From Tricholomella constricta (Eukaryota > Basidiomycota > Agaricomycetes > Agaricales > Lyophyllaceae): a stretch of 64,000 nt of DNA. This document shows, in pieces, positions 12,544-49,945 of the stretch. The stretch spans positions 62,001-126,000 of the forward strand of contig JAACJP010000027.1 of the NCBI GenBank assembly GCA_013368375.1. Reading direction: 5' to 3'. The notes under the pieces were generated by a model. It saw only the letters and a list, made by a program, of their open reading frames with translations. It did not search any database and was not told where the DNA came from. Position 1 is the first letter of the stretch. Each line of letters starts with the position of its first letter. A program made the position numbers and the translations under genes.

Positions 12544-12982
12544 GTACCCCCCGACGGCCTCACCACTCATGTATATACATACACCCACGCATGCGGACGT
12601 TCCATGTCGATATCGTGCTCAGACATTTATATGTAGTCATATACCAACCATCTCCCCCGGCCCCTTGTTTTATGTCTTTTGTTGTTTTGTTTTGGCTCGG
12701 CCACTACTACTACTGCTACTACTACTGCTACTGTTTGCTTACCCCGCGTATCCGTCCTCGGGTAAAGCCTTTTACGGCGTCGTGCCGCAGGACGCGTCAT
12801 GATCAGGATCGCAGCTACATACACGTGCTGGGAACAACACAGCCACGGAACGGCTGATCGTCCATCCGAACATCATCCTCAGCGCCGCCATCATCGACAT
12901 CGTCGCAGCGAAAAAAGTCTTGCTCCTCCCTTCCCTCCTTCCTTGACCCACTCCACTTTAGGCCTTATCGTTATCGCCCACC
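12544..12982. other. Intergenic spacer with CTA/CTG triplet run and DSK2 promoter
   Basis: No gene is seen. A run of CTACTACTACTGCTACTAC triplets lies at about 12703-12736. The 3' part immediately precedes the DSK2 start, which has a good CCCACCATG context. Confidence 0.55.
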
Positions 12983-14943
12983 ATGTCCGACGACGCACCT
13001 GCGCCGCAGATCCAGATCAACGTCAAGGGTGAGTGGCCCCGCCTCCCTTTGAGATGCAAGATGACTGGCCACTGATGTGTTTTTTGCAGGCCCCAGCGAA
13101 TTGAAGCTCCAAATCACGGTGACGACTGACAAGACCGTGCTTGAGCTCAAGCAGGCCATCGCTGAGCAGTCCGATGTCGAGGCTGCACGACAGCGCCTCA
13201 TCTACTCTGGTCTGTTCCCCCCCCCTCCTCTCTTATGCTTTTATGCTTTTATCGGCGCTACTGACACGTAGCGCTTGCACAGGCCGTGTCTTAAAAGTAC
13301 GCCCGCCCCCCGCTCCCTCGCTGTTGCTGACTTCCCGCCAGGACGACGACGCCCTATCGGTGTACAAGATCCAATCCGGGCACACCATCCACATGGTCAA
13401 AGGCGCTGCTGCGCGCGCCGGCGCCTCCTCCTCCTCTCCTTCAGCGCAACAGCAGCCGCAGCAGCTGCCGGCGATGCAGGCGGGGCAGAGCCCGCTCGAC
13501 CCCCTGACGCAGCTTAATAGCCACCGCGGGTACGGCGCCATGGCGGGGCTCAACCCCTTTGCGGATATGGGTGTGAATCCGAATGACCCCAATATGGTGC
13601 GTTTCTTTGTCCCCTTACCCCCCCCCTTCCCTTTGTTGTTGTTGCGATTGTGGTTGGGTTGGAGATGCTGACGCGCTTGGTGTTGGTGCTTGGTGGTGGG
13701 TTGCGGGATGATAGATGCAGACGATGATGAACTCGCCCGAGTTTTTGAACCAGATGTCGGCGATGATGTCGAACCCGCAGATCATGGACCAGATCATCGC
13801 TTCTAACCCCCAGCTCGCATCCATCGCCCCTCAGGTCCGCCAGGCCTTCCAGAGCGAGCAGTTTAGGCAGATGGTGTACGTCCTTTACCTTTCCTTCTCC
13901 TTCCCCTTCCCCTCCCCTTCTTCCCCTCCCCTGCTTCCCACCTCCCACCTCCCACTTCAAGCTCCGAGCTGACCCCTGCGTTAGCTCCGACCCCCACCGC
14001 CTCCAACAGATGCTCCAAATGGCCTCCCTCTTCAACCCCGGCGCAGGCGGAGGCGCAGGTCTAGGCGCGTTCCCAGCCCCAGGCGCCCCCACCTCCTCAT
14101 TCCCCGCCCCCGGATCTCCAACCACAACCACAAACACTCCTACACCCACATCAAACACGAATCCAGGCGCGAACCCGTTCAACCCCTTTGGCGCGGGTGC
14201 GGGTGCGGGTGCGGGTGCGCCGAACCCGTTCGGGATGGACCCGGCGTTCATGCAGCAGCTGCTTGCGGGGGGCGGGATGGGTGGGATGGGCGGGATGGGC
14301 GGGATGGGTGGGATGGGTGGATTGGGTGCTGGGATGGGTGGATTGGGTGCTGGGATGGGGGGAGGAGGTGTGCCGGCTGCGCCTGCGGATACGAGGCCGC
14401 CGGAGGAAAGGTTCCAGGTGCAGTTGCAGGTGTGTTTATTTTTATGTTTCCTTTTTCCTTTTCGTTTTCGTCGTCGTCGTGTATGGTGTGCGCCTGGGCC
14501 CGGGATTTCTTATTTCTGCCCCGCTCAAAGAGGTGGATGGGGATGGGGATGGGGCCGCGGTAGTGTTGTCCGTGTCCAGGGCGCCGTTGCCGTGTCTCCC
14601 CCGCACGCCTGTTTCTTGTGGTTTCCATCACCGTTCCCCCCCCCGCTCTGACCGACATCAATACCGATGAATGAATCCCATACTGACGCGCTCCCCCCCC
14701 CCCTCCGCTGTGTTTTATTCTTTGCTGTTCGCGCCGACCCCCGCCCCGACCCCTCCCCTCCCCTCGGCCTCCCCACCCGCCCCGACCCCCCCCACCCGCC
14801 CTTCCCGCCCGCCCTCCCCCACCCGCCAGCAACTGAACGACATGGGCTTCAGCAACGCGGCCCAGAACGTCCGCGCCCTCCTCGCGACGGGCGGGAACGT
14901 CCACTCTGCGATCGAGTATATCCTTGGCGGCGGCGGGCTGTGA
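12983..14943 (+). CDS. DSK2: Ubiquilin/DSK2, ubiquitin-proteasome shuttle protein
   Basis: Seven exons (12983-13028, 13090-13209, 13283-13296, 13342-13596, 13715-13875, 13985-14429, 14830-14943) join in phase to 384 residues. Exon 3 is only 14 nt. The N-terminus is a ubiquitin-like domain (LKLQITVTTDKTVLELKQAI, LIYSGRVLKDDDAL, IQSGHTIHMVKG). A STI1-like helical region follows (MNSPEFLNQMSAMMSNPQIM, then RQAFQSEQFRQMV, LQQMLQMASLF). The C-terminus is a UBA domain (LNDMGFSNAAQNVRALLATG, ending IEYILGGGGL). The layout matches yeast Dsk2, which carries ubiquitinated clients to the proteasome. A Gly/Met tandem tract (GMGG units, about residues 265-300) and GA repeats are expanded here. The last intron is unusually long, 400 bp and C-rich. 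Confidence 0.95.
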
Positions 14944-15797
14944 TTGGAAACGTGTGTGCGTGTGTGTGTGTGTAATGGACCGTGGTGGGGGTAGGGGGTA
15001 GGGGTAGTTGTAGAGGTTGTAGTTGGCGTGGTGTGTAGGACTACTGATCTGCGTTTTTGAACTTTCTTTTTCTTTTTCCTTTTCCTTTTCCTTTTTCTTT
15101 TTCTTGAGCGCGATCGTGAGCGCGGGCGCGGGCGTGGGCGGAAATGTTGACTGGGGTTCGTGTTTCGTGTTTTTTTTTTCGTGCGGTTGCGGGGTGCGGG
15201 TTTTAGGCAGCGGCGTATGATCAGTGCTATACCTTGTTGACACGGCCCACTGTTTTTTCAGAGCGCGGCACAGCGTGGGGGGGGGGGGGAGGCGTCCGGT
15301 CAAGGCCGCTCCCGGGCCATCCAACGCCAACGTCTGCGCTGCCATAAGCATAAGCGTAAAGCATAAGTTAACGTCCGCGGCTCGTTGACGCGTTCAAGAT
15401 CAAGATCAAGGTGCTGGGGGGGAAGGGGGGGTGGCTTCGGCTCCGCCCATGTCTGTGTGCTCCGCCTCAGAGGCGTTGAGGCGTTTCTCGATTACTTTGC
15501 CACAGTTCGAGTTCGTGTCGCCCCTTGTACATGCTTACTAGGCCCTCGGGGCCGACGACCACTGCTATAGCTACTGCTACTATGACTTCGATTACGGATT
15601 TTCCCTGCCAGATATGATGACGGTTGAGCAGGGGTGATGGGTGATGGGTGATGGGCGATAGTGGAGGGTAATGGAGATGCTTCGCAGGTGCTAAGATTTA
15701 TTTTCGAATGGTAACATGTAATGTAAATTACATAGGGCTTTAGGGATGAGATCTACTTTTTCTTCAATGAATCTGCAGCCTATGCAGATGCGACCCG
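14944..15797. other. Intergenic region with polypyrimidine tract
   Basis: No gene is supported. It contains a T-rich CTTTTT/CCTTTT tract at 15062-15108 (probably the DSK2 3' flank), G-runs near 15281-15291 and 15415-15430, and from about 15580 a degenerate copy of the kinase 3' flank also seen after kinases 1 and 3. Confidence 0.5.
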
Positions 15798-18700
15798 TCA
15801 AGCGAGCAATGTGGGTTCCTCCACGTCAGGTTGAAATCGAAGCCGGCCGACGAGAATCGTCTTGCTCGGGCTTCCCGAGGTTGACTTGGACACCTTGCTG
15901 AATAGTTGCCGCTGCGATGCACTCGTGGCTTCTTCTTGGGGAAGCTCAAACGTGCCCCAGGGCTCACGCTCACCTTCCCGAGGAGAGGATGGCACATCGA
16001 AATGCGCCTGATGGGTGTGTGGTCAATCAGCTGCAACCGAGTAACGACGCGACCAAGACGCGACAGACCTCTTGGTCAGCATGACCATGATGCACGAACA
16101 GTGCATAGTTTCGCGCCGTCAGTGTTTCCACAACTACAATTGTGTCAGCAAAGAACAATAAAAGGGAAGGACTCACTGAGCATCAGATCCTCTTTCTGCA
16201 GCTCGTGCTCGCGTCCAAATGCACGAAGAATGTGCTTCCAGTACACGCAGAACTACTGCTTACATGCCCCGACATCCTCAATGGCATGATGTACAGTCTT
16301 TTCAGCACAAAGGAACGCCACGCGTTCACCAGAAAGTGAGAAAGTGCGCCTCTTTGTGAATTCCCTGTCCAGAATGTGTGTGCGTGTCAGTGTGAAAGTA
16401 ACAATGGCGGGGCATTCTGAACGCTTTGTTGAAGACGTACGGGGTAAGTACTGCTTGAGATCTAGTTTTAGTAGATGAGAATGCTCTAAAGTTCTTCCAA
16501 GCGTTCCTTTCTCGTTCTTGTCGGCGCGCAAAGATGATCCGGCCAAAATCAGTGATACTCCGCAAGTCCTGCAATCGACCGCCGGAATACCACTCGGGGT
16601 TGAGAGAGTTGAGGAGTTTCACAAAGTTGTCCATTGCGATTGAGGTACCCCACGTCTCCCAGCATCGCATCTCCCGGTGTCCACAGAGGTAAATTGACTG
16701 CAATCGATGGTAAGAGACGATACAGATGCATGGTAGGCGCTCGCAGATCGGTGACTCACGTGAAGAAGGGTATCCATGTGACAAGCATACGCGGTATGTA
16801 AACTCAAACTGGTGGTCCTGCGCACTTTCATGGTCAGGCTCTTGGATAGTCTCCCCATCGTCGACCGGGCCTGGCTGCACGTCTCTCGGGACAAAAAGCA
16901 GAGAGTCCTGGAGAGCGATGGATGTTGCACTGTGTTCGTTATCGATGATGGTTTCGCCTTCGGACTTTGGGCTCGAAATGTCCGTGATAGATGGCGCGGA
17001 ATACTCTGGGCGAACCAAAGGAGGGGAAATGACCCTGATAGATGGCGTGGAATCTGGACGAGGTGAAGAAGGGGCAACAAGAGGACTTTCGCTTTCTAGG
17101 GCGCCAGTAAGAATGGTAGCAAGACACGCGCGACAAACGTACCTGGACTGCCGACAAGGTTGTTGAATGATTTCGGTTGAGAAATGGCGATGCGACGGGA
17201 TTCGATGGCGGTTAAAGGGGGACGCAATCCACTCCGCAGTGCTGCTAACGACGGAACGAGCTCACGAAAGGGTGGTCGCTCAGAGGGCGACTGGTGCCAA
17301 GCAGCGCGAAGGAGATGTTCTAATCCGAGTGCGTGGACCAGCCCATCGGGGAACGGTGGTCGACCTTGTTCATCTACAGGCAGAGTGAAGTAGACGTTCT
17401 GACAAGTCACTCAAACACTGACCAAGGACATGTCGTCTCACAGCTTCGTCAGGCATCGTTGGCCAAGGAACACTACCCATGGTCAAGACTTCGACGCAAC
17501 ACATGGCGAAGGCATAGATGTCAATCTTCTTTGTGAGTAGAGAATGGTTGCCCATCAATTCTGGTGCCTGCCACCTCATCGCATCTGTAGATAATGGATG
17601 AATCGGTGATTGTAATAAAGAGGTTGGATGGACCACGAACGGTTTGGCAGTGAATTTCCCTGCATAACATGGGATTTCCACTTGCTTTGGCCAAAGTCCG
17701 ATATGACACAGCGTACATCATCGGATACGAGCACATTCGCAGCCTGGAAGTATATAAAAGAGTTAATATCTTGCTCGCTCGACATGGATAGTCAGACTGA
17801 CCTTTAAATCTCCATGATAGACACCATGTTCATGGAGATACCTCATCCCCTCCGCGATATCATGCAGCACGCAAAGATGATCAACCTTCTCGTGGATGAT
17901 CCTTGCTGCCGATGCCTCATCACCAGATTCGGCATGTCTCTGCGCTTCCCAATCCACGCGCAGCAGATAGTCCGTCAGGCTACCGTGTTTCATCAAGGGG
18001 CTGACAAGGAACCAGGGCAAGGGACCTTCTGCACTGCTCGCGCCGTACAGCTCAAGCACGTTCCGATGGCTGAGGGCTTTCCAGACATTGATCTCGTTGA
18101 TGAACGACTCCCTTGAAGTGTGGATCTCGAGCACCTTGATCGCCACGGATCGCCGGTTCCACGACCCCTTGTAAACAGTTGAGAAGAAGCCGCGACCAAT
18201 GCGCTCCCCAAGGTCAATTTCGAACCTGGGTTTACGGGTCGTGTCAGTCCTGATTGTTTGATGTAGGCACCTCCTTACTTCGTAATAGTCAAACTCGGAA
18301 GTGTAGGCAGCGGCCCTCCATACGCGCTCTTCAGGGCCCGGAGTTCCCTCTCGATGAACTCCCTGTCGAGAAGATTGAGCTCGCGGAGCTCAGGACCATC
18401 GACTGGCCACGTTGAAGACCTGCGCTGCGATGGCAGCGACGTTGACAACTTATCAGCGACCTTGTGTAATCGAAGCTTCTCCAGAACTCGCAGCAACGTC
18501 TTGATAGCATCCGGAATGTCGGGCTTCTCCACTCCAAGGAATTCCAGCGCATCGTCCACTGCCTTGCTATAGATGCATTCAAAGTCCGCAGTGTCAGTGT
18601 TACTATCTCGTTTATTTTGGCGGTCCTGAATCGTGCGAATCCTCTCGTGAATTTCTTCGTTGGACGATGGTAATGTTTCGATTTTCAAGTCGATGTCGTC

Positions 18701-24129: not shown

Positions 24130-27100
24130 TCAAGCAAGCAATGTGGGTTCCTCCACGTCAGGCTGAAACCGAAGCCGGGCAACGAGGATCGTTTTGCTCG
24201 GGCCTCCCGAGTTTGACACCTTGCTGGAAAGTTGCCGCTGCGATGGACTGGCGGCTTTTTCTTGGGGAATCTCAAACGTGCCCCAGGGTTCACCGTCCCG
24301 AGGAGACGGTTTTACATCGAAATGGGCCTGATGGGTGTATTTGTCAACGAGGAATTTCTCCTGCTGCAATGAGTCACGACGCGACGGACCTCTTGGCCTG
24401 CATGACCAGAACTCACAAACAGTGCATAGTCTTGCGCCGTAAGGGTTTCCACGACTACGATTGCGTCAGCAAAGAACAATAAAAGGGAAGGACTCACTGA
24501 GCATCAGATCCTCTTTCTGCAGCTCGTGCTCACGTCCGAATGCACGAAGAATATGCTCCCAGTACGCACGAAGCCACTGCTTACATGCCCTGACATCCTT
24601 AATGGCATGATGTACGGTCTTTTTAGCACAAAGGAACGCCACGCGTTGACCGGAAAGTGAGAAAGTGCGCCTTTTCTCGACTTGTTCCCTGTTCAGCATG
24701 CGTGTCAGTATAAGTAACAATTGCGGGCATTGCAAAGCTTCATCAAAGACATACGGGGTTAGTGCTGCTCGAGACTTAGTTTTGGAAGAGAATGCTTTGA
24801 ACTTCTTCCAGGCGTTCTTTTCGCGTTGTTGTCGGCGCGCAAGTGTAATCCGGCCAAAATGAGTAACGCTTTGTATTTCCTGTAATCGCCCGCCGGAAGA
24901 AAGCTCGGGATGGAGACAGTTGAGGAGCTTCACAAATTGTCCACTGTCATCGAGGTACCCCACGTCTCCCAGCATCGCATCTCCCGGTGTCCACAGGGGC
25001 AGATTGACTGCAATCGGATGGTAAGAGACAATGCATATGCATGGGCGCTCGCAGCTCACTGGTGACTCACGTGAAGGAGGGAATTCATGAGACAAGCATA
25101 CGCGGTACGTAAACTCAGACTGGTCCTGCGGACTTTGACGATGAGACTCTTGAATAGTCTCCCCATTGTCGAGCGTGCCTGGAGATTGTATGTTCCCTGA
25201 GGAAAGAAGTAGGGAGTCTTGGATAGATATGGACGCTGCACTTTGTTCTGTATCGATAATGATTTCGTCTTCGGACTTCGGGCTCGGAATAACCGTCAAA
25301 TATGGCGTGGAATACTCTGGACCAGGTGAAGAAGGCGGAACAAGAGGGCTTTCATCGACGCCGGTTTCGTCTTCAAACTTCGGGCTCGGGATAACCGTCA
25401 AAGACGGCGTGGAATACTCTGGACGAGGCGAAGAAGGGGGAACAAGAGGACTTCCGCTATCTAAGGTCCCGATGAGAATGATAGCAAGCCACACATACAG
25501 AACATACCTGGACTGGAGACCTCAAACCCTGGGGAGAATTCAACAAGGTTGCTGAACGATTTTGGTTGAGAAATGACGATATGAGGGGTGTCCATGATTG
25601 TTGACGGGGAATGGACATCATTCCGCAGTGTTACTAGAGACGGAACGAGCTCACGAAAGGGTGGTCGCTCAGAGGGCGACTGGTGCCAAGCAGCGCGAAG
25701 GAGTTGTTCTAATCCGAGCGCGTGAACCAGCCCATCGGGAAACGGTGGTCGACCTTGTTCGTCTACAAGGCAGCGTGAACTAGTCATCCTGACAAGTCAC
25801 TTAAACACTTACCAAGAACATGTTGCCTCACAGCTTCGTCATTCATTGCCGGCCAAGGAATACTACCCATTGTCAAGACTTCGATGCAACACATGGCGAA
25901 GGCATAGATGTCAATTTTCTTCGTGAGTAAAGAATGGCCGCCCAACAATTCTGGCGCCTGCCACCTTATCGCATCTATGGGTAACGGATTTATAGATAAT
26001 TACGATAAAGAGGTGGGATGGAGCACGAACGGTTCGGCAGTGCATTTCCTTGCATAACATGGGATTTCCACTTGCTTTGACCAAAGTCCGAAATGACACA
26101 CCGTATATCATCGGATACAAGCACATTCGCAGCCTGGAAGTGATAGAATACTGTGAATATCTTGCTCGCTCGATACGGATAGGCAGGCTAACTTTTAAAT
26201 CTCCATGATAAACACCATGTTCATGTAGATACCTCATCCCCTCCGCGATATCATGCATCTTGCGAAGATAATCAACCTTCTCGTGGATAATCATTGCCGC
26301 CGATGCCGCATCACCAGATTCAAAATGTCTATGCGCTTCCCAATCCACGCGCTTCAGATAGTCCGTCAGGCTGCCGTGCTTCAGCAGGGGGCTGACAAGG
26401 AACCAGGGTAAGGGACCTTCCGCACTGCTCGCGCCGTACAGCTCCAGCACATTCCGATGACTGAGGGCTTTCCAGACATTGATCTCGTTGATGAACGACT
26501 CCTTTGAAGTGTGGATCTCGAGTATCTTGACCGCCACGGAGCGCCGATTCCACGACCCCTTGTAAACAGTAGAGAAGAAGCCGCGACCAATGAGCTCTCC
26601 AAGTTCAACTTCGAACCTAGGTTTACGGGTCGTGTCAGTTGTGATTGTTAATGTAGGCACCTTCTTACTTCGTGATAGTCCAACTTGGAAGTGTAGGCAA
26701 TGGTCCTTTGTACGCGCTTTTCAGGGCCTGGAGTTCCCTCTCGATGAATTCCCTGTCGACAAGGCTGAGCTCGCGGGCCTCAAAACGATCGACTGGCCAC
26801 GTCGAAGACCTGCGCGGCGATGGCAGGGACGTTGACAGCTTATCAACGACGTTATGTATTCGAAGCTGCTCCAGAGCTCGTAATAACGTCTTGATGGCAT
26901 CTGGAATGTCGGGCTTCTCCACTCCAAGAATTTCCAACGCATCTCTGTCGTCTTCCGCCTCGCCATAGATGCGTTCAAATTCCCCCATGTCACTGAACCT
27001 GTCTCGTTCGTTTTGGCGGTCCTGAATCGTGCGTATTTTCTCGTGAATGTCCTCCTTGGACGGCGGTAATGTCGTGATGTCCAAGTCGATGTCGTCCAGG

Positions 27101-36588: not shown

Positions 36589-36595
36589 AATCGAC
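36589..36595. repeat. Left target-site duplication of the KDZ element
   Basis: The heptamer aatcgac precedes the element and recurs at 49939-49945 directly after it. The next base is c on both sides, so the duplication is 7 or 8 bp; 8 bp is the size reported for Zisupton-type elements. Confidence 0.8.
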
Positions 36596-37140
36596 CACAT
36601 ACAGGCACTACAATGTAGCGTGTCCTACTGTCCAGCGGGGCAATACATTGTACCGTACTTGACGGCACCAGCGGGGCCACTGGAATGTCAGCGGGGCCCC
36701 TACATGTAGCCGTTTGGCACGATGCCAGCGGGGCCCCTACATGTAGCCGTGTGGCACTGTACCAGCGGGCCCGCTGCAGCACCAGCGGGCCTATACAGTG
36801 CTGTGGGGGGCAGGGTGGGGGCTAGCAGAGGATCTGCGGACCTCCGCGGGTCGTCGTCCGTGGGCACACCCAGCACTGCAGCGGGCCTAGCAGTGGGGGA
36901 TTGCCCACCCCTGCGGACCTCCGCGGTTCGTTGTTTTGGGGCACACCCAGCACCCTAGCAGCGGGGGGTTGCCCACCCCTGCGGACCTCCGCGGGTCGTT
37001 GTCCGTGGGCACACCCCTGCGGACCTCCGCGGGTCGTTGTTTTGGGGCACACCCAGCACCCTAGCAGCGGGGGGTTGCCCACCCCTGCGGACCTCCGCGG
37101 GTCGTTGTTTTGGGGCACACCCAGCACTGCAGCGGGCCTA
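36596..37140. repeat. Left inverted terminal repeat with subterminal tandem units
   Basis: It matches the reverse complement of 49395-49938. Long internal parts are identical, but the outermost 30 bp differ at several positions (cacatacaggcac against caggtaggggcat). It contains ctacatgtag palindromes (36699-36708 and 36739-36748) and, from about 36830, tandem units of roughly 68 bp, each with gcggacctccgcgg. Confidence 0.9.
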
Positions 37141-38488
37141 GCAGCGGGGGATTGCCCACCCATGCGGACCTCCGCGGGTCGTTGTTTTGGGGCACACCCG
37201 GCACTGCAGCGGGCGGTGTCCATGTCCGCGGGCCAACGCACATCCTCAATTGGCATAGCGGAATGTGCTGTTTCGAGGCTAGCAGGGAGCTTTATGCATG
37301 TCCGCGGACATAGTCATTAATTTGTGGGGTGTCCACAAAATTATGTTTCTTCGATTGCAAATGCATTACAAACATATTGGAAAGGTTTGTGCATGTTTGC
37401 GGGGTTATCGATAAAGATCTTTCAGCAGCACATTGCCTTCGCTTCTCCAGTCATAGTGTTTCTCAAAAAGGTGCTTGATCAAAGCATGCCCGCGGGCATG
37501 CGCAGCCGCGGCCGCGCGACATGCCTATTTAATTTCAAATGTATCTTGTGAATGTCTGTAGAGCTTGGTTTCTCATTGTAAATGCTCCGTTCAAAATGTG
37601 AATGTCCGCGGGGCTATCTGCGCAGCATGCAAAACATAAATTGCAAACAACTATGTAAACACTTCCTATTCATCACCCTCCTGAGGACCGTCAATCTCAT
37701 CGCGCATAGTGCGGAATGCACTCAGAGCAGTTTGCTCAGCCTCAAGTTTTCCGACCTCCACCAGGAAAAGCTGACGAGCCGCGGAGGCATATGACACATT
37801 GTAGAGTTTTTGAAATGCTTTAACCTCCGCGTGGAGACCAAGGATCTCTCGCTCAGTCAACGGCTAATAAATGACTGTTAGGTTTGTTGAAAGGTTGTGA
37901 GTAAAGAAAGCATTTACAGGGTCCGCGGGGATCATGACTAACCCGGAGGCTAGAGCATGGAAACCCCCATCCTTGTGCTTATGTGGCTGATCAATTAGGT
38001 AAGCCATGAAATACAATAATCTGAAACTGCTCCACTTACCCCCGGGGCTTCCTTGGCCTTGTTCAACTCCTTCTCCTTGAGTGCCTCAGTGAGCAGCTTT
38101 TGCTCCGTAGAAGCAGCCAAAACCTGGGGCACAAGGTACTCATGGCCGCCAGACTTGATTGCAACATGTCCGCGGAGCGGAGCGGGCTGCCTGACCGCGG
38201 CCCCCGCGGCCTTCTTACTTCGAGTGTTCATTTCTTTGAGTGTTTGGGTGGTGTCTGGACAAGGCCTGGGACAAGGCCTGGAAAAGTCTGTGATCTTAAG
38301 AACATTTCGAGCACGCAATAGGAACCTGGCGGAACAATGGGGAACGATTCATAAGGAATAGGATTATATTTAGCCATGTCACGTGATCATGTTGACCTAT
38401 AAAAAAAATCCTTCAACTCTCTTCCGCTCTTCCACATCCGCCGCCGCGCCAATAGCCTTTTCCTCTACACCTCGGACCTCCGCGCATC
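37141..38488. other. Left spacer of the KDZ element
   Basis: No gene of the element is supported here. One more tandem unit extends to about 37200. Single CCGCGG sites are scattered at intervals of 30-300 bp, for example near 37229, 37303, 37487, 37508, 37606, 37780, 37923, 38171, 38196 and 38207. Short minus-strand frames at 37666-37860 and 37995-38318 could be exons of a further small gene, but a joined model was not established. Confidence 0.5.
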
Positions 38489-40438
38489 ATGTCAGTCCCC
38501 CTCACCCACATTGATCAAGACATCGTTCAAGCTGTCAGTATCGGGGACCTGGGGGCCTTTGAGGATCTGTACCAGAGAGCAGTAATTTTTTTTTTGGCTT
38601 GCTTACAATTAAATATGTAATATTAATTTTTCATTATAGAAACTAGTCTGGCGGGTTGCCAAAGCCAGCACCAACCCGGAGGTCATCAGAGCGCGGCAGG
38701 CGTCCCTCCTCGCCGCCACCATTCTGAACATTCAGGCCATCCGGCACAAGCCCCCCAACAGCGACGAGCTCCTCAAGGAGCTTCGAAAGGCTGCCCGGGG
38801 ACACCAGCAAGGGCAATCCTCAACGCCCGCGGACGAGGCCGACCCGGCCGCGGAGGTGGCGAGGGAAAGGGAGGCGGCAAGGGAAAGGGCGGCAGCAAGG
38901 GAGAGGGCCGCGGAGGTCTCAAGGAGAGCGGCGGTAGAATTGGAGAGGCAGTTGGCGGAGAAGGCCGCGGTTCAGGCCGCAGAGCAGAAGAAGGCAAGGC
39001 AGGAGAAGAGGGCGAAGACCGCGGAGGAAAAGCGGGCCAAGGTCATGGAGGAAGCGCGGGCCAGGGCAGCAGAGGAAGCGCGGTTAAAGGCCGCGGAGGA
39101 AGCGCGGGCAGCGAGGGAGCTGATCCGGTCTCAGAAGAAGGCGCAGAGGGAGGAGAAGGCTGAGAAGGAGAGGAAGGAGCAGGAGAGGGCCGAGAGGGAT
39201 AGGCAGGAGAAGGAACGGGCGAAGGCCGCGGGGAAGCGCACAGGGGAGGTGGGGCAGGAGAAGGAGAAGGAGAGGCGGCGGAAGGAGAAAGCGAAGAGAG
39301 CGACGGTCGGTGGGCCCGCGGAGTTGGGGAAGAAGAAGGAGAGGACGATGGGTGAGCCCGCGGCGGGCCCCGCGGTCCCTAGTGAGTTCTTTCTCTTTCT
39401 ATTCGTTGTAATTTCCACTAACAATTGTCACAGAAATCACTGCCGCGGGGCCTTTGAAGAAGGGGGGGCCCTCCTTTGTGGACCTGGACGAGGCCGACGC
39501 CAGTGACGTAGAGGTCACGGAACCCGTACCTGCAGGGCACAACCCTGCCCACCACTACCCCCGCTGTGCTCGCTGCGAGTTCAGAAACCTGGCCTGCGAG
39601 CGACAGGGGGGCAGGGGTGTAACCTGCCTCGCATGCAAACATGCAAAGCAAAGTTGCATGTTTGCCATCCGATCGGACCTCCCCGCGGCACTGCCCAAGT
39701 CCAAGCCCAAGGTGAAGGACACCCCCGTGGTCCCCTCAAGTGAAGAGGCCATTGCGGGGCCCTCAAGTAAGTTTTCTTCCTTTTCGTTCATTGGTTTTGT
39801 TGATGAATTAAATCTTTGAAGCCCCCCGCGTCGCCCCTACCGCCCCTACCACCTCCGCGGGCGCCGCGGCGACTCTGTCCGGCTTGGTTGCCGACAACGC
39901 AAGCTTGATGCAATCCGTTGCTGCCATTGAGATCACCCTGAGGGACATGCTCCGGCGGGAACGGATTAGGGCTGCAGAGGAGAAGAAGCGGGAGCAGGAG
40001 ATGCGGGAGCTGAAGGAGGCATATGAGGCGCGCATCACCTTGCTGGAGGGGAGGCTGGAGGCGCCGAGGGGACTGTCGTCCGCGCCCGTGATGTCCGCGG
40101 ACGACCTGGACCTGTTGCTGATGGACTTGGATGAGACGCCCCTCCTCCCATCTCTGGCAGCGGAACCCGCCCCCAACCCCGCGGGCGCGTCCCCAACTCC
40201 AACAACGCCGGCGCAAACCCCGCCTGCCCAGACCCCGCCCCCCCAAACCCCGCCTGCCCAGACCCCCCAAACCCCGCGGCACGAAGAAACCCTGCACACC
40301 CCACACTGGAGCCCCACTGGCCCCCCACCAGAGGACGATGATGAGGGTGAGGATGAGGAAGATCCTCAAAGGCTGAAGCGCAAGGCCGCGGAGGATGCTG
40401 ATGGGGAGGGCCCATCCAAGCGGCATCATGCTGACTAG
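38489..40438 (+). CDS. Element-encoded coiled-coil protein with Zn2Cys6 cluster
   Basis: Four exons (38489-38581, 38640-39381, 39434-39766, 39822-40438) join in phase to 594 residues. The N-terminal 75 residues are helical. Residues about 110-270 form a long Arg/Glu/Ala/Lys coiled coil. Residues 323-353 fit the binuclear zinc cluster exactly: C-x2-C-x6-C-x9-C-x2-C-x6-C, as in Gal4-type DNA-binding proteins. A second coiled coil (EEKKREQEMRELKEAYEAR), Pro/Thr-rich repeats and a basic end (RLKRKAAEDADG, SKRHH) follow. Zn2Cys6 proteins bind CGG half-sites, and the surrounding DNA is saturated with CCGCGG. I infer that it binds element DNA; regulation, anti-silencing or transposition targeting are all open. 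Confidence 0.82.
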
Positions 40439-40643
40439 GTGACGGGGGTTCTTTTAGTTTTGGACATCGCCCCGCGGACATTTATTTTGCTCAGACCGCG
40501 GACATATTTTTTTGCACCACATATCATATCATAGCAAGGACATCTGTATATACCCTACTTAGAATTCAAAAGTATATACATCAATCTAAAATTGTACCAT
40601 TTGTCATTGTGTGAAGCTACAAAATGTGAAGCTACAAAATAAA
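40439..40643. terminator. Convergent 3' ends of the Zn2Cys6 gene and the minus-strand gene
   Basis: This 205 bp AT-rich spacer separates two convergent genes. It contains aataaa-like sequence near 40637-40642 on the plus strand and two adjacent copies of gtgaagctacaaaat (about 40610-40640). It presumably holds both polyadenylation regions. Confidence 0.45.
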
Positions 40644-42890
40644 TTAGCGGCGCCTTGGCTTTGTTTTGTTGCCAACGCCCGCGGACTTTGATGTTGTGGC
40701 TCGAGTTGCGGCCCCAGTGCGTGTGCGGCTGCCCCTGGTATTGGCACTGGCACCAAAGTCCGCGGCCTCCGCAAGCAGTAAATCCTGCCTTGATTTCTTT
40801 CGCTTGGTCTGTCCTTCAACCTGCTTGCGCTTGCGTGTAACCGGAGGTGGGGGCGGAGTTGGTGTACCCGGCGGAGAGGGAGTAGGATTGTCAGGCGGCG
40901 GAGTTAACTTGTTGAGGAGCTGCATTGCAGTTGCCGGCACCATATACAGTGGCAGCCCTTCGCCAGGCCCATTGATGGGTGCCTGTGTCGGAAGTCCGCG
41001 GGCATTTAAGTGGTGCATGGTGGTTTCATCAACGGTGACCAGGCCTCCATTGGTCGTGGGGTCTGGCTCAGGACTCTGTCTCCCATGTCCGCGGGTGGAG
41101 TTCGGTGGCCCGCGGGGCTGATTCATTGATCTGTTATTTGGCGATGGACTCTGTTGGTCATTGGATTGGAGTTGATTTACTAGCCCGCGGGGTTCTTGGC
41201 ATTCGTTATCTGCAGCATCATCGTCTTGAAGTTCATTGTGATGGGTATGATTTTCCTGTCCGCGGGGTTCGCTCTCTGGTGACGGACAAGGGTGGTTTTG
41301 ATTTTCGTTTGATGGTGGATGACCGCCTTCTAGGTCGGGCATTGAAATAAGGTCTTCTAAGGGGTCTGGAGCTGGTGCTTTGTTTTTGCCCTTCTTCCGC
41401 CTTGCTTTCTTTGCTGCTGCCGCGGCAGCCAAAGCTTCCTGGTCCTTTCGCAGCCCATAGACCGCCTCCATTCTCTCCTTTTTCTTGGTCAAGTAACTGG
41501 ACCAGCGAAAGGCCTCTGAGGGTCCAAGCCTTTTCTGGCGAGAGCGCCAGAAGTCGAGCAACTCCTGGAGTTCAGTTAGTCGGAGGTTCCGTGGGTCTTG
41601 CATTCGGATGTCCGCGGGTATGTACTCCGCGGAGATGAACATTCCATTGTCCGCCTTTATGGAAGTGAATGGAGGCGACGAGTAGAGGTGTCCGGATGCT
41701 AGTTCTGTAAGGAAATTAGGATAGGCCTGATAAGATATCAAAGGATTATCACGTACTGTAATGCTGTTTCAGGAATGCGCGGACCAGAAGTTCAAGGTCA
41801 TCTTTGCTCTGTTGCACACCTTCTACCAACTCCGGTAGAATTGGAAAACCATCATTTTGTTGATCCAGCTGTAGATCTGGACGTGGCTTGACTACTGGAT
41901 TAGTCCGATGCAGGGGGTCTGGTGCAATGGATTCTTGGAGTGAAAGGACATAGTCCATAAGCTTTCTTTTGATGTCCTTCACTATGTGCGGAAAGTTATC
42001 AACGAAAGTTTTACTGATCGCTCCTGCATTTGCAGCAATCTTGTCATGACTGCTCCGCGGCGGACATCAGTGCAAGTCCGCGGAGTCGATGAACAACTCA
42101 CGCCCGGATTTTCAGTTGCCCATCTTGCGCTTTCCATGCCACAAATGTAAGGGACAGCATGCCCATCTCTCGCCACCTGTTTGCATCCTCATTCTCCACT
42201 CGTTGAAAGCCCCGCTTATCTGCATTCCTGAGATAAGAAGGTATCAGTTCCGTAATGTCCGCGGGCCCGCGGAGCTACTCACTTGCGCTGCTCCTCAGGA
42301 GGATAGCCCTTGGTGCTCCACTCACGGGCAGTGTCCTCTGCCTCCCGGAGTTGTTGCGGAGTGAGTTTGTTCATCACCCGTGCCAAAGCCTTGGTGCGTT
42401 GCTGGAAGGCCGCGGGGGACGATTCATCGACCTCTTCAAGCTCCAGTATCTCTTTCAACTCTTCAGTAATCAAGCCGCGCATTGTCCGATTGACTACCTG
42501 GCGCGCAGTAACCTTCAATTTACCCGATGACTGGTTGACCGTCGGGTAGGGCCTCCAGTTGTTCCTTACATAGTCTGCCAGTTTCTGTGTGCTGATCAGC
42601 GTGATGACTCAGGGATACTCCCTAACCTGACAGACCGTGGTAGCCGACGCGGACTGCTTGTCAGTCTTCGGTTCTGTTCCCTTTGCCTTCCAATAGTTGA
42701 ATATATCAACAAGGACTTTGTCCTTGAAGATGGCTGCCCTTTTGTCCTTGTCCGACTCTGATCGGTACTCCTCTCGGTACTTGTTGAGGACCGCGCGCTC
42801 GTCAGCCGGGTACTGGGGCTGCTTGCTTGTCTTCTTCAGGGCCGCGGGGGCATGTGGGACTGTTTCCGGTGTGAAAATATTTTCGGACAT
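40644..42890 (-). CDS. Element-encoded protein of unknown function
   Basis: The gene starts at ATG 42890 (MSENIFTPETVPHAP) and ends at 40644 (NKTKPRRR). Several exons are needed: about 42890-42630, 42550-42285, 42260-42115, 42030-41760 and 41735-40644, giving roughly 650 residues; junctions were not all fixed. Recognisable pieces are a Lys/Glu-rich helical N-terminus (DKRAAIFKDKVLVDIFNYWK), a segment with RQVVNRTMRGLITEELKE, a motif around SIKADNGMFISAEYIPADIR, and an Ala/Lys-rich then Pro-rich, very basic tail. I recognise no domain. Similar accessory proteins accompany KDZ transposases in Agaricomycetes as far as I recall. A nuclear protein assisting transposition is a guess. Confidence 0.65.
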
Positions 42891-43144
42891 GGTGGAGCTC
42901 CGTTAAAAATTTCCTATTTGGGTCACAAAGGGTTGAACTCCATGTTTGACAGTTGTCCCACAGTATCCGCATTTGGCAAGGAAGTTTCCAGTTTGAGTAA
43001 TATGAGGCACGGGTGCATCGATGGCCCCGATTGTGAGTGCAGCTGACCTTGCACAACCATGAGGACATGTCCGTGAGTAATCAGTGACCCATCAGTAGAC
43101 AGGTTCTGGTTTTTCCACCTTATCAGATCTCACCCGTACCCACC

Positions 43145-46100
43145 ATGTTGCGTGCAGTAAAGCGCACACGTCGCAAGAAGGATGAAGTCTATGAGGAAAG
43201 TTCTCACTCACATGCCATGGATGTCGAGACAACAGTCAGGCATACCCGGAGGGGTGACATCTTGGAATCCAGGAGTGTCCCTTTGCGCAATAGGTCACCG
43301 GACCCTGCTACATCTGTCCGTCGGGGTGTGCAGGCCCGTGTCCAACCCTTTGAACATTCGGACATTCACTCAACAGAGCTGAATGACACCACTGATGAGG
43401 TGGCCCCCAAACAAAGCAAGGTGAATTGTTCTTTGAAGTAGTGTGTACATGTAATTGAATCACAGCACAGACACAAGGTGATTACCTTCAAGAATTTGTG
43501 GACCATGTTCCAGAACTGTTGGAGGGACTGCTTGGGAGAGAGCACATTGAAAATCATACTCAATGTTCTGATTGTCCCAAGGGCAACTTAGGACGTTGGC
43601 GTTGTCGAGACTGTCTCAGTGACAGGATACTCTGCCGGGGTTGCATGCGGACAACTCACAGGGACAATCCTCTCCATCGCATTGAGTTCTGGACAGGTCA
43701 CTACTTCCAGGCAGCTCAGCTGCACGAGGTTGGTACCTACTTGCTGGTCCCTCACTCCTCCGGGAAAGCACTCTGTGATACGCTGCAGCTGCAACAGGAG
43801 CAGTTGGAGAATTACCAGGTGAAATATGACGATGAAGAACAGAAGAACCACCGCACAGAGCAACGAAACGAGCCCGCGGGTCAACAGGCTAACTCCGCGG
43901 ACGCCGCGGACATGCCGGAACAGCCTTCCTATGATGCGGAGGACGATGATTATATGGCGCGCTTGAGCCGCGCTTATGGTCTACAGCCAGAATTTCATCC
44001 AATTGCTGAGGCAGGATCGACTCTGGACACAGTTGAAGTCGAAGTGGACGAGGAAGATGACGATGACACTGGTCTCGATGATGACCTTCCGGCAAGAATG
44101 CCACGGCACGACGCCTTCAAGAATTGTTATGTGCGCATTGTACATGTCAATGGAATTCACTACATTCCACTTGTCTTCTGTTCATGCCGCGGAGTCAGCA
44201 AGGTCAATACAGACCTGATGCACAAACGATTGGTGCCGGCTAGCTTCACACGATACAATACGCTCTTCACCACTGCAGTCCTCGATGATTATCGCCTTGC
44301 GAACCTGGAATGCAAGGCATCTGCATTTCAGTATTGGCACAAACTCAGCCGGACTACCGCTGCAGCAACGAGCTCCGCGGACATCGACAACTTTTATCGC
44401 GAACTCCGCCGGCTCTCGCGTTCATGGAGATGGCTCAAGAAGCTCAAATGGGGTGGATTTGGCAGCAATAACAGAGATCCAATGCAGACCACCGCAGGGG
44501 AGCTCGCCATTTTTTGCCCCACATGTCCGCAGCCAGGTGTGAATCTACCCGCGGGATGGGCCGCGGACCCGAATAAGTGAGTGCATTTGGTGACCATTGA
44601 TCATTGTTATTGACATTATATGCAGAAAAGTATACATGAGGTCTTTTGTGGCAGATGGCAATTTCAAAGCGGATCATGTTCGCCAAAAGAACAGTGCAAT
44701 GGATGTTTGGCTGTCGGAAGGGTCAGGCATGATGGCTAACCGTGCCAATTATAACGAGTTTTTGAAGGAGGCATTCAACGTGATGACAGTGAGTCAAGTC
44801 GATTATCTCCGCGGCGTAGGCCGCGGTGTTCCACCACCGCCGCGGAGTTCTCTGCTAACGTCCACTTTAGAAAGCCCCTTGCGAGAATCAGTTCCGCGCT
44901 GTTGAGCAGGCAATGCTTGTGTCCAAGGCCTGTGATGTTAAAGGAATTGTGGCCATTGCATGTGCGCGGCATGGCTGTTTTGCCCCCAACAGCCTGTCGG
45001 ACCTCCACGCGGGGGAGCAGCAAAAGAATGTTGACTGGGCATTCCTCCAGGCGCTTAAAACAACAAATGTGGAAAAAATCGACGAGGTGTTGTTGATCTA
45101 CGATATTGCCTGCCAATACATGGTACACTTCCTAAAGCGCATTGGTCACCTACTCCCCCCAGGAATGACTATCGCTCAGGCCATCGGACTACTCCATGTT
45201 CACGGTCACAAAGCTGATTGCTTTAACCGCTTTGCAACTTCTTTCATTCCAGGCGCTGCTATAGTTGCGGGTGAAATTCTGGAGAGTTTGTGGGCCGTAT
45301 TGAACACTGTGTCACCAATGACCAGAACTGCAACATTGGCACACCGAGCGGAGATCCTGGACGATCATATGAATGATTCTAACTGGAAGAAACTCCTGCA
45401 GATGCGTTAGTAAAATTTCATCCATTCCGTTACGATAACTGACAATGTCCGCGGCCGCGGAGTAGCGGTCACATTGTGTCGGACATACGAAAAGGCGACG
45501 GAGACGTTGGAGACTGCTGAAGAATATTTCAAAGGTGTCGCTTCAGGCATAAGCCGCACACACACTGCAAGGTGGGAGGCGGAGATCCAGGAGGCCGAGC
45601 GGAGGAGGGTTCATGATGTGAAGGCCATGGACATCCTCAAAGCGCGGACCGCGGACATCGGGCAGCCGGGAGATTCTGGACCTGTGGAGCACTCAACAGC
45701 TGAAGAGGAGTGGATACAATCAGGCCTTGATCTTGAGGAGCGCCAGTAAGACATTTTATCTCTATGTCTTCCAGAGCTGAACAGTTTCTATCCAGAATTG
45801 GCCTTCAAGACAAAGTCCGCCAACTTGCGCGCGAGCCGCGGGAAGATGTCCGCAAGGCCGTCGAAACTGAAAGACAAAGCCTACGTTCACAAATTGATGT
45901 GTTCACATCAAAACAGCTGAGCATAAACTTCATTCCTTCGGCCTCCGCGGAGGATGTGCCAGGGAACGTCGAAGCCTTTGACAACCTAGACGAGAACCCC
46001 GCGGACCTGCCACCCGGAGATGCCGCGGCGCCGGCCCAAACACGCTCCCGTCCTGCGCCTGTCAGTGCAACAGACGGACCCCTACCACCAGAGCAGACAC

Positions 46101-46919
46101 CTATTTGCCTGCCATCCGCGGCTGGGGAAACTGAGACACATCTGGCTAAACTCGAGCTTGCATTGCGCAAGGTTCAAGCGGAGCGCCATCTGCAGAACCT
46201 CCGAAATGCAATTGCGGAGAAATCATTTTTGTACTCACACGTCATCCGAGTTGCTCCGCGGAAGGGTGTGGTGACGCGCGCGCGGGGGAACATCACCACC
46301 CTCAATTACACAATCACCACCCTTTGTCGGGTGTATGACAAATGCAGAGCAAAGCTCGTCTGTCTGGGTGCGGATGAAGGCACACTGGAACGGTACAAAA
46401 TTCTCGACAAGAAGCATGTGAAATCGAGCACCGCCATACTGGATCCCAACACTCCGGGCTCAACTGATATCCGAACTACCAGTCTTTCCTGGATTTGGCA
46501 AATACCTGGTCAAGCGACAGATAGTCCAGAGGCTTTGCTGGAGTGTATGTGTCCTTTGGCGTCAACCCCGCGGAGTTGTTACTGACATGATATCAATAGT
46601 CCAACGTATTCATTTCTTGAGGGCAAGGGCACAAAAGGATCGATGGACAGAAGAATTCACTCTTGTTCAATATGAAATGACTTGGACCACCCGATATTTC
46701 CTTCATCAGGCCCAGAGCTGGGTAGAGCGCGGTGCGGAGGCCGCGGCTGCAGCACAACCGGGCCCGACAGCATATGCACGGCGGAAGACCGCCATGTGGA
46801 GGGAACTTGCTTGGTTGGCGGAGCAACGATTTAAAGAGGTAAATCGATCATATGTAGCATTGCTTCCATAGAATCGAATAATCATCAATGCCACGCTGTG
46901 TACAATGGTCAGCAGGTAA
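43145..46919 (+). CDS. KDZ transposase with CxC2 cysteine cluster
   Basis: Eight exons (43145-43420, 43471-44576, 44626-44788, 44871-45405, 45466-45745, 45775-46544, 46600-46838, 46872-46919) join in phase to 1138 residues; the CACCATG start is strong. Near residues 115-160 lies the CxC2-type zinc cluster (CSDCPKGNLGRWRCRDC, CRGCMRTTHRDNPLH). The KDZ catalytic core follows: VADGNFKADHV (first Asp), a CARHGCFAPN block, LLIYDIACQY (second Asp) and GEILESLWAVLN (Glu), with HGHKADCFNRF between. The C-terminal half is helical and ends with the RIHFLRARAQKDRW block typical of the family. All three acidic residues are present, so the enzyme may be active. It would cut and paste the element through its inverted repeats. 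Confidence 0.9.
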
Positions 46920-47239
46920 TGGCCGCGGACATGGTTATCCGTGCTGTATGCATCGATAATCAATCATCAGTGAGCATTGTAGGTCAGATCCGCGGACATC
47001 GTTGGCCCCGCGGCATGCCCCGATCACATGAAAGCAACCTTTTCCCTCAATCATGTCACCATGGATGGTATAGAATGCAGTGAACTGCTTGCAACAATGT
47101 CCGCGGGGGTCAGCCTTTGGCCGCAGGCAGACATCACGATACTCCCACCACATGACTGTGTGAAACCACTGACCAATCATGTGGCCGGTTTTTTTCTCTC
47201 ATTATCTGATTCTTATCAAACTCTCATCTACAAGCAAGA

Positions 47240-49019
47240 ATGGCCTTCTCCGCACTCCATCCCATAGAAACCGAAAGCTTCTTGCCTCCGACACTCGGTG
47301 CCTCCGCAGTTCACCTCCAAGAGGTTCTATATTACTGTGAATCCCGCTTCCGGGTTGCCCTGGCCAAGTATGCCGGTATCAAGGATATGGAGGTCCAAGC
47401 TTCCATGCACGCGCGCTTGGCCGCGGAGCTTGTATGTATTATTAGCCCTTGAATCTCCGACCTCGACTCAGTTTTCCCACAATAGGATTTTGTATTAGCA
47501 TTTGTTGGGGCTGCCACGAGCATGATGACCGCGTGCGAGGTCCCAAATTTACTCCGCCTTCTCGGTTCCCACTTTTATGGGCAGCCCGAACCCCGCGGCC
47601 CACTTGTGCTTTCTAATGCACTGATTCTTGCGCTGGACGCCTCAATGCCGCTTGAGCATCCCGCGGCCATTGTAGCCGAGTATGCCTGTGATTGGTGGCT
47701 GGAGCATGAAGACCAGGAGCTCCGTGAGCCACTGAGCCACGCCACATTGGAGAGTTGCCTTGTGCTCCACCGTCAGCAACGACGCGCACCGGCCCTCCGG
47801 GTTCCGCGGATCAACGGCACTCCGGAAATCCTCCACCACCGGACTCGAGCTCAAGGTTTTTCAACAATTTATGAAGCCACGATAGCGCAGAGGGCCCGCC
47901 GTGCAGGGGGCTTCCACACCATGTTTGAGGCTGCGACCCAAGCCGCGGGGCCCGCGGGGCGCGACAAAGATTTGAGCCCCGCCGCGCTCTTGAAAATATT
48001 TAACCCGGAGGCGACGGTGGGACCGCTGGCGTCGGACTTTGGGGGGGACCTTCCATCCGGAGACGAGACGGGGTCATATTCAGAATCAGACAATGAGTTG
48101 GGGGCAGGCTCTGACAGCCCAAGGTATGAGTCACTGGCAAACGATGTTATTGAGCCCAGGGAGCTGCATCCCGAGGAGTTCCCGGACCACTTCCGCCAGC
48201 CGCCACTTCGATCCGTTGATCTGGAGTACCAGAGTTACTACCAGCAGACGTCCAAAGGGTCCGACGAGAATGCCGCGGGCGCCGCGGGCATGGAAGGTAA
48301 GAAGAAATCTTTTCATCTCCTGACTTATATCCATCCCTTCAATGTCCCCAGATTATGTTCCATCCGCTGGCGGCGACCCGAATGTGCTATTCTCTGACGA
48401 CGACCAGCCCGCGGAGCTGGGAAGGCATGACACCGCTGACGATGACCAGCCCGCGGCGCCGGGAGGGCATGACCCTGATGTACTGTTTTCGGATGACGAT
48501 GGTTCGGATGATGGGAGGCCCGCGGAGCTGGAACAGCATGACCCCGACGTTATGTTTTCAGATGACGATGACAGGCCCGCGGCGCCAGCGCAACATGACC
48601 CAGATGTTGAATTCTCGGATGACGATGACGGGCCCGCGGCGCCAGCGCAACACGACCCAGATGTGGAATTCTCGGATGACGATGGCGGGCCCGCGGAGCC
48701 GGCGCAACACGACCCAGATGTTGAATTCTCCGATGACAATCATGGGCCCGCGGAGTCGTCGCAATCCGACCCTGATTTTGAGTTTTCAGACGACTCAACT
48801 GTCTCGGAAGTTTTGTCGCTTTCTGATACCTCAGGTGAGGAAGAGTTCAGAGTCAGGCCCCGACGCCGACCTGTTAGAGGACCTCCCTTTGAGATGCTTG
48901 AAGGCTTATTACAATTTTCAGACAATGAGATCAATCAGGAGCTTGCAGTTCAAGTACCCCACGGCCCTTACACTCCAGCCTCCTTTGCACATATACCATC
49001 AAATATTCTAGATGACTAG
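47240..49019 (+). CDS. Element-encoded protein with acidic tandem repeats
   Basis: Three exons (47240-47431, 47486-48296, 48352-49019) join in phase to 556 residues. The N-terminal 260 residues are mixed helical (YCESRFRVALAKYAG, LVLSNALILALDASM) and match nothing I recognise. Residues about 365-490 carry imperfect tandem repeats of 19-24 residues with the core HDPDVEFSDDD followed by GPA-PAQ. The tail is conserved-looking (RPVRGPPFEMLEGLLQFSD). Each repeat codes GPA through a cccgcgg stretch, so every unit contributes one CCGCGG site. The acidic repeats could bind histones or basic proteins; this is inference. Confidence 0.75.
48400..48790 (+). repeat. Coding tandem repeat with one CCGCGG per unit
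   Basis: Six to seven imperfect units of about 57-70 bp follow the pattern gatgttgaattctcngatga, a GAC-rich run, then gggcccgcggagcc. They encode the acidic repeats of the last element gene. Copies 4-6 are the most alike, which suggests recent expansion. Confidence 0.8.
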
Positions 49020-49239
49020 TATACAGGCTTGTCTTTGAACCTATTTTTGGGCCCCGTGGACATAAAATTTTTTATACATCTGTAATTCTGAAAAGTCCGG
49101 GGATGTCCATTACAGATCCACTGGAATGTGGGACACGCAAAATGTAGTGTGCTGTGATTGTGGCTGGAAATGTCCGCGGCAAGTAGGACATGAAACCCCC
49201 GCCCTGGACAGCCCATATAGCACATGTACTGACCTGCCC

Positions 49240-49938
49240 AAAACAACGACCCGCGGAGGTCCGCAGGGGTGGGCAATCCCCCACTGCTAGGCCAGCTGCA
49301 GTGCTGGGTGTGCCCACGGACAACGACCCGCGGAGGTCCGCAGGGGTGGGCAACCCCCCGCTGCTAGGGTGCTGGGTGTGCCCCAAAACGCAGCAGGCCC
49401 GCTGCAGTGCTGGGTGTGCCCCAAAACAACGACCCGCGGAGGTCCGCAGGGGTGGGCAACCCCCCGCTGCTAGGGTGCTGGGTGTGCCCCAAAACAACGA
49501 CCCGCGGAGGTCCGCAGGGGTGTGCCCACGGACAACGACCCGCGGAGGTCCGCAGGGGTGGGCAACCCCCCGCTGCTAGGGTGCTGGGTGTGCCCCAAAA
49601 CAACGAACCGCGGAGGTCCGCAGGGGTGGGCAATCCCCCACTGCTAGGCCCGCTGCAGTGCTGGGTGTGCCCACGGACGACGACCCGCGGAGGTCCGCAG
49701 ATCCTCTGCTAGCCCCCACCCTGCCCCCCACAGCACTGTATAGGCCCGCTGGTGCTGCAGCGGGCCCGCTGGTACAGTGCCACACGGCTACATGTAGGGG
49801 CCCCGCTGGCATCGTGCCAAACGGCTACATGTAGGGGCCCCGCTGACATTCCAGCGGCCCCGCTGGTGCCGTCAAGTACGGTACAATGTATTGCCCCGCT
49901 GGACAGTAGGACACGGTACATTGTAATGCCCCTACCTG
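49240..49938. repeat. Right subterminal tandem repeats and inverted terminal repeat
   Basis: The segment 49395-49938 is the inverted counterpart of 36596-37140. Two further repeat units extend inward to about 49240. Every unit has ccgcggaggtccgc, itself able to pair with its neighbour sequence. The antisense frame across it encodes the same 78 residues as the left copy, which shows near identity. Confidence 0.9.
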
Positions 49939-49945
49939 AATCGAC
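49939..49945. repeat. Right target-site duplication of the KDZ element
   Basis: The heptamer aatcgac directly follows the right end and equals 36589-36595. The sequence then continues ctgtactgagatcac, matching the uninterrupted units at about 52660 and 61945. Confidence 0.8.

Follow-up and report, generated by a model that had tools for sequence, protein, structure and literature searches.

Introduction

In Arabidopsis, the VANDAL transposons encode an accessory protein, VANC; PMC5735166 and PMC10398659 describe a short motif dense in the protein's own family, related families that differ in both motif and protein, and tandem repeats as one source of the sites. A similar arrangement was found in a 64,000-nucleotide stretch of DNA from the basidiomycete Tricholomella constricta (assembly GCA_013368375.1, contig JAACJP010000027.1, positions 62,001 to 126,000), hereafter the window. 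Positions 36596-49938 of the window (contig C27 in our numbering) hold one complete KDZ transposon filled with the palindrome CCGCGG and encoding a candidate zinc-cluster protein. Based on the results below, we suggest that the element's own zinc-cluster protein probably binds CCGCGG and coats the element, most likely against silencing.

The VANC motif lies mainly in noncoding DNA, whereas CCGCGG is as dense in exons; moreover, the window element is a fungal KDZ transposon with a candidate zinc-cluster reader and a palindromic motif. The likeness we claim is one of working, not of membership. The sites of Spm TnpA and MuDR MURA are confined to the ends or terminal repeats of their elements, whereas CCGCGG covers the window element. 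According to PMC10398659, both are transposon proteins linked to methylation loss on their own element, as we propose for the candidate protein here.

Two further comparisons come from fungi. The yeast zinc-cluster proteins Pdr1 and Pdr3 are host regulators and are not mobile, in which they differ from the element-encoded zinc cluster. They share its six-cysteine class, the level at which they were compared, and, according to PMC3091778, recognise CCGCGG, that is, two opposed CGG triplets. The TET/JBP-carrying Kyakuja transposons of mushrooms resemble the window element in KDZ transposase, 7-bp duplication and CA..TG termini, and a counter-methylation role has been proposed for them (PMC12730594); the window element differs in having no TET/JBP match, in its long inverted repeats and in carrying a zinc cluster and a motif instead. 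Among titles and the starts of abstracts, mostly outside subscription journals, we found neither a fungal transposon in which a zinc cluster goes with a saturating motif nor a combination of KDZ and Zn2Cys6.

Excess of CCGCGG in the Element

The element contains 100 copies of CCGCGG, and the remaining 50.7 kb of the window contain 11. Dinucleotide shuffles of the element (n = 300) gave a mean of 4.5 and a maximum of 12, and after removal of the terminal repeats 86 copies were left against 3.6 in the shuffles. The density is 7.5 per kb, about one site per 130 bp, compared with 0.28 per kb genome-wide (27-fold). An earlier reading of the letters alone (the sequence-only reading) had estimated about 100 sites against three to five by chance, and these figures agree with it. 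It had also seen a single site in the 34 kb around the element, where there are in fact two (32561 and 60399), and correctly fewer than ten in the 5-15 kb block, where 8 were counted and composition predicts 7.4. The GC-rich block itself (positions 5000-16000, 57-65% per 2-kb step) is full of short tandem repeats.

General GC richness was ruled out as the cause. As that reading had judged by eye, other GC-only palindromes are not comparably common (2-19 copies): GGGCCC is the next palindromic hexamer with 19, and the remaining GC-only palindromes occur 2-8 times. Equal enrichment of all GC-rich hexamers, which it had named as a refuting outcome, did not occur among the GC-only palindromes. A genome-wide excess was likewise ruled out, since the 12,158 copies of CCGCGG in 44.09 Mb do not exceed the 12,474 of the reversed control hexamer. 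By contrast with this reversed control, which forms 12 triple clusters (three copies within short gaps), CCGCGG forms 123 in the genome. Among the 50 listed, which cover contigs C1-C14 only and of which several share one array, 48 lay in a zinc-cluster neighbourhood (-3 to +12 kb) or at most 9 kb from a paired KDZ; by a rough estimate, this neighbourhood makes up about 2% of the genome, and on contig C7, which contains a 21 kb copy, it was for that reason widened to 25 kb.

Organization of the Element and Placement of the Sites

The features of the element are given below in window coordinates. Exons are stretches of long open reading frames (ORFs) picked by eye, and the gene models are approximate.

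36596-49938, plus strand: KDZ transposon (Kyakuja-like), 13,343 bp, termini CA..TG, 100 CCGCGG
36589-36595: left 7-bp target site duplication, AATCGAC
49939-49945: right 7-bp target site duplication, AATCGAC
36604-37139, plus strand: left long inverted repeat, CCGCGG inside tandem units
49395-49930, minus strand: right counterpart of this inverted repeat, with 99% complementarity between the two
38640-39380, plus strand: putative zinc-cluster gene, exon upstream of the cysteine exon, rich in Ala, Glu and Lys and without a Pfam match, 10 CCGCGG, limits approximate
39442-39768, plus strand: putative zinc-cluster gene, exon encoding the six cysteines, limits approximate
39565-39657, plus strand: C-x2-C-x6-C-x9-C-x2-C-x6-C cluster, CARCEFRNLACERQGGRGVTCLACKHAKQSC
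39830-40438, plus strand: last exon of the putative zinc-cluster gene; its translation, judged by eye, has a candidate coiled coil, stretches that are proline-rich or acidic, and a basic tail
40647-42896, minus strand: accessory gene, divided by eye into several exons, with no Pfam family passing the cut-off, 10 CCGCGG in 40647-41768
43459-44580, plus strand: transposase gene, CxC2 cysteine-cluster exon, Pfam PF18803 at E 4.3e-18, cut-off passed
44871-45410, plus strand: transposase gene, KDZ domain exon, Pfam PF18758 at E 7.3e-36, cut-off passed, zero CCGCGG
45737-46582, plus strand: long ORF 3' of the KDZ exon, probably of the transposase gene, 7 CCGCGG
47486-48394, plus strand: long ORF, no Pfam match, 7 CCGCGG in 47486-48290
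48324-49019, plus strand: acidic repeat ORF, no Pfam match, 57- and 42-bp tandem repeats, most units with one CCGCGG

The ends of the element read CACATACAGG...CTACCTG with AATCGAC on both sides; an alternative reading with an 8-bp duplication, AATCGACC, and an element start one base later also fits. Two Laccaria Kyakuja families are described with 7-bp duplications, CA..TG and no terminal inverted repeats (Kojima 2025, PMC12730594). The window element has the KDZ domain, the CxC2 cluster, the 7-bp duplication and the CA..TG termini of Kyakuja, but also inverted repeats of 536 nt, and because of these it was classed as a KDZ transposon that is Kyakuja-like rather than Kyakuja. Outside the transposon, a 102-bp tandem repeat of about two copies with 89% matches lies at 25263-25453.

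Exons hold 56 of the sites, terminal repeats 14 and the rest of the element 30, the density being 8.3 per kb in exons and 6.7 elsewhere. Codon bias was ruled out as their cause, as synonymous codon shuffling of the nine long-ORF stretches (n = 500) gave 12.5 exonic sites with a maximum of 21; all three frames are used (44, 7 and 5 sites), chiefly the one with a GCG alanine codon. Tandem repeats were ruled out as the entire cause, because 89 of the 100 sites lie in distinct 16-bp contexts. Within the acidic ORF, the 42-/57-bp tandem repeats at 48395-48791 are coding repeats that multiply CCGCGG. The sequence-only reading was thus right about the dispersion of the sites and about codon bias and a single tandem repeat as insufficient explanations. 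It overstated the extended form TGTCCGCGGA, said to occur at many sites and counted only 6 times. Its saturation of the whole element stood in that sites occur all along it (10, 6, 11, 9, 8, 7, 1, 7, 5, 8, 7, 10, 9 and 2 per successive kb) and failed for the KDZ-domain exon, 44871-45410, which contains none; codon shuffles there never produced one either.

This placement bears on two other explanations. Most zinc-cluster proteins are transcription factors, and the last exon of the putative gene contains, by eye, a candidate coiled coil and an acidic stretch, so the protein might be an ordinary activator of the element's genes and the sites an overgrown enhancer. However, the exons and the 3' part are also filled with sites, and the exonic count far exceeds that of the codon shuffles; we regard this explanation as rather improbable. 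Alternatively, the protein might be a transposition cofactor: bound to CCGCGG, it would compact or synapse the element so that the transposase can act, much as TnpA does in CACTA elements through their subterminal repeats. TnpA does bind subterminal repeats, according to PMC8195511, and the terminal repeats here contain tandem units with CCGCGG. Such a role is nevertheless unlikely, given that the terminal repeats account for only 14 of the 100 sites and that the body, exons included, is about equally dense, while synapsis of the ends needs no such sites.

The Zinc-Cluster Protein

The six cysteines in Zn2Cys6 spacing were unchanged in all ten aligned family members, which had been located partly through such a cysteine pattern. 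The Zn2Cys6 pattern is C-x2-C-x6-C-x(5-12)-C-x2-C-x(6-8)-C. Pfam Zn_clus was matched by eight of the ten members when E values as high as 10 were allowed, the best being 0.0011, and because the Zn_clus cut-off was not reached, we name the domain a divergent Zn2Cys6-type cluster and not a certified member of the family. Comparison of the zinc cluster by structure and sequence gave 10 PDB sequence matches and 17 Foldseek matches, all weak, which we take to be zinc-cluster proteins. A search for homologues in the protein collection retained none of 1,948 candidates at E <= 0.01. The zinc-cluster class binds pairs of CGG triplets, and CCGCGG is an everted CGG pair without a spacer. The protein class, together with the co-variation described below, suggests that the element's zinc-cluster protein binds DNA.

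Motif and Zinc Cluster in Related Elements

All comparisons were made within one genome (44.09 Mb). A KDZ profile search gave 151 matches, reduced to 111 places after second fragments had been removed by hand. With the window KDZ exon as query, 45 of these places, 64-100% identical to it, formed a clade; the remaining 66, short fragments aside, were at most 33% identical or unlisted. Related zinc clusters, searched with two zinc clusters as queries, often preceded a KDZ of the same strand by 5-7 kb. A zinc cluster and a KDZ were treated as a pair if no more than 25 kb apart; by this rule, a zinc cluster accompanied 36 of the 45 clade copies, compared with 1 of the 66 others.

Ten further copies were compared, nine from the clade and one from outside it (C6:403543, 30% identity). 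Four elements related to that of the window (C64, C23, C15 and C16) contained 9-17 times as many CCGCGG as expected from shuffling. In the comparison of motif enrichment, which counts distinct contexts, eight A/F14 elements or regions had CCGCGG at 9-26 times and ATCCGG at 0-1.1 times expectation, with TCCGGA at 0-2.2 and CCGN3CCG at 1.4-3.5 times, the latter separating less well. In four B copies (C12, C59, C20 and C5), the KDZ of which is 76-78% identical to the window's, CCGCGG was at 0.8-1.2, ATCCGG at 2.3-6.4, TCCGGA at 2.3-7.1 and CCGN3CCG at 3.1-9.5 times expectation, part of this signal coming from a (CCGCAC)n array in C20 and from terminal arrays in C59. In the tree of ten zinc clusters, carriers of CCGCGG and of CCGG were split on one branch (99/95), with the F14 branch long and unsure, and the loop that joins the third cysteine to the fourth has 9-10 residues in the CCGCGG class and 8 in the CCGG class. 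Motif and zinc cluster thus vary together between the sister groups.

The (CCGCAC)n array of the C20 copy (L049 1092-1280, about 190 bp) is possibly a young site array. In the C59 copy (L047-L048, C59:85000-99299), repeats spaced 109 bp apart in both terminal regions carry the words CTGACCCGAGA and GGACCCGG, perhaps a third type of motif. In the copy C6:403543, CCCGAC is enriched, more weakly.

As a test of prediction, three regions were chosen because they encode a related zinc cluster (72, 44 and 30% identity), and all were rich in CCGCGG: the first two have 22 sites each in 3.5 kb, and the third has 24 sites in 3.0 kb. The first, F12, aligns to the window element over 2.2 kb with all its sites inside, 14 of the 22 at a window site. 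Its copies (C7, C53 and C65) had been considered a different transposase lineage, which was dropped at 95-98% identity; the F12 motif is therefore not independent evidence. The second region has 15 sites within 2.2 kb of unalignable sequence. The third, F14, gave no blastn alignment to the window element over 3 kb and yet holds 24 sites; in the KDZ it shares 79% identity with the window element, a distance close to that of B. The base after CCGCGG is C in 70% of F14 sites, compared with A in 25-56% in seven A rows, and if the zinc cluster does read the motif, the expected site of the F14 protein would be GCCGCGGC. Unalignable parts of C23, C15 and C16 contain 12 sites in 2.9, 13 in 2.8 and 13 in 4.5 kb, and 2.0 kb on the 3' side of the C16 core contain 1, with 1.3 expected.

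Outside the clade, 30 of the 66 KDZ places were sampled, many of them near-copies. Together these loci span 108.8 kb and contain 17 CCGCGG, none of them more than 3, compared with 21 in the corresponding part of the window element, so an excess as a trait of all KDZ transposons is not supported. The sequence-only reading had argued for selection on a DNA-binding site along the whole element, and this is well supported. Its comparison with VANC gained from the element-encoded candidate protein and from sister elements with a different motif and zinc cluster. Related KDZ elements without a CCGCGG excess, which it had named as contrary evidence, do exist, yet they are enriched in another CGG-based motif.

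CpG Decay and TET/JBP-like Genes

Outside the motif, the observed/expected CpG ratio of the element is 0.69, compared with 0.99 and 1.06 in the flanks, and TpG and CpA are in excess, as expected from methylation and deamination. In a 5.5 kb core, motif CpGs were kept better than other CpGs both from the window to C16 (55/60 vs 178/246, p = 7e-4) and from C16 to the window (52/52 vs 181/219, p = 1.5e-4). Better retention at p < 0.05 was found in 8 of 12 directed comparisons, which are not independent; the other 4 gave p of 0.13-0.95, one of them (C23 to C15) in the opposite direction. Whole CCGCGG sites were kept at 26/30 in C16, 19/30 in C23 and 18/30 in C15, and other two-CpG hexamers at 101/160, 77/160 and 75/160.

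Sister copies lose CCGCGG mostly by CpG transitions and gain few sites, and the terminal repeats and the acidic-ORF repeats have multiplied the motif, as would fit a functionless spread by a mutational process such as repeat expansion or biased conversion. Such a process seems extremely improbable in view of the distinct contexts of most sites, the dense but unalignable F14 region, the excess that survives codon shuffling and the better retention of motif CpGs in most comparisons.

The genome contains 5 matches to the DNA methylase family and 23 to TET/JBP, 6 of the latter above Pfam's cut-off. On C27, the TET/JBP search gave no match between 98 and 112 kb, i.e., none in the window element. 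Fifteen TET/JBP-like matches (E 2e-6 to 6e-4) lie at most 15 kb from a KDZ copy, 14 of them beside non-clade copies and one, the weakest, beside a clade copy (Fisher p = 0.004, near-copies uncorrected). At several places the distance to the KDZ transposase is about 2.5 kb, e.g., C27:160456 with KDZ C27:162970. The sampled loci of KDZ copies near such matches lack a CCGCGG excess, and for most of the 66 non-clade copies neither TET/JBP nor a zinc cluster was found. Some other KDZ lineages seem to carry a TET/JBP-like gene where the window clade carries a zinc cluster and the motif.

Proposed Mechanism and Its Meaning

We suggest the following working of the system. The element would express its own Zn2Cys6-type zinc-cluster protein, which would bind CCGCGG as two everted CGG triplets, probably as a dimer. 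Sites would have accumulated until the whole length could be coated, and their high density would make the element the main target of the protein. The bound protein most likely would hold the element open in the face of host heterochromatin and cytosine methylation, leaving the element's genes expressible, and sequence specificity would confine the effect to the element and spare the host genome, as with VANC. Protection from methylation-based silencing appears the likeliest use because of the VANC parallel, the TET/JBP-like genes elsewhere and the CpG decay; the anti-silencing role itself is suggested by analogy with VANC.

Several observations weigh against this proposal. The window zinc cluster scores 9.8 bits against Pfam's Zn_clus cut-off of 21. 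No zinc cluster was detected in 9 of the 45 clade copies, among them the C5 copy with the B motif and C32:222726, a clade copy outside the eight A/F14 rows that has 12 CCGCGG (4.7 times expectation). Zinc cluster and clade coincide and are therefore not separable from one genome, and the single separating branch makes the motif switch one event, plus a change of flank. The copies without a detected zinc cluster could also mean that the true reader is another protein, whether a host factor, the CxC2 domain or the product of the accessory gene on the minus strand, and the zinc cluster a passenger. Among the element's proteins, however, the zinc cluster alone is of a class known to bind CGG pairs, and a silencing host factor would not be expected to favour the gain of sites, so that another reader is very unlikely.

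A broader proposal is more tentative, and we hold it with slightly more doubt than belief. Fungal KDZ transposons may have evolved, independently of plants, self-recognition and anti-silencing by a zinc cluster and a CGG-pair motif in coding and noncoding DNA, the two differing together between sisters (CCGCGG vs ATCCGG/TCCGGA/CCGN3CCG) and taking the place of the TET/JBP-like gene of some other KDZ lineages in this genome. None of the 15 KDZ-linked TET/JBP matches is above Pfam's cut-off, which also counts against the proposed function and makes this broader reading less probable.

If true, motif-reading anti-silencing would have arisen in transposons of both plants and fungi with different proteins, and the KDZ elements would be a compact case of a protein and its site switching specificity together. 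It would also be a second candidate route of anti-silencing, beside TET/JBP, inside one transposon superfamily. More generally, the dominant short word of a transposon may reveal which site is bound by the DNA-binding protein that it encodes.

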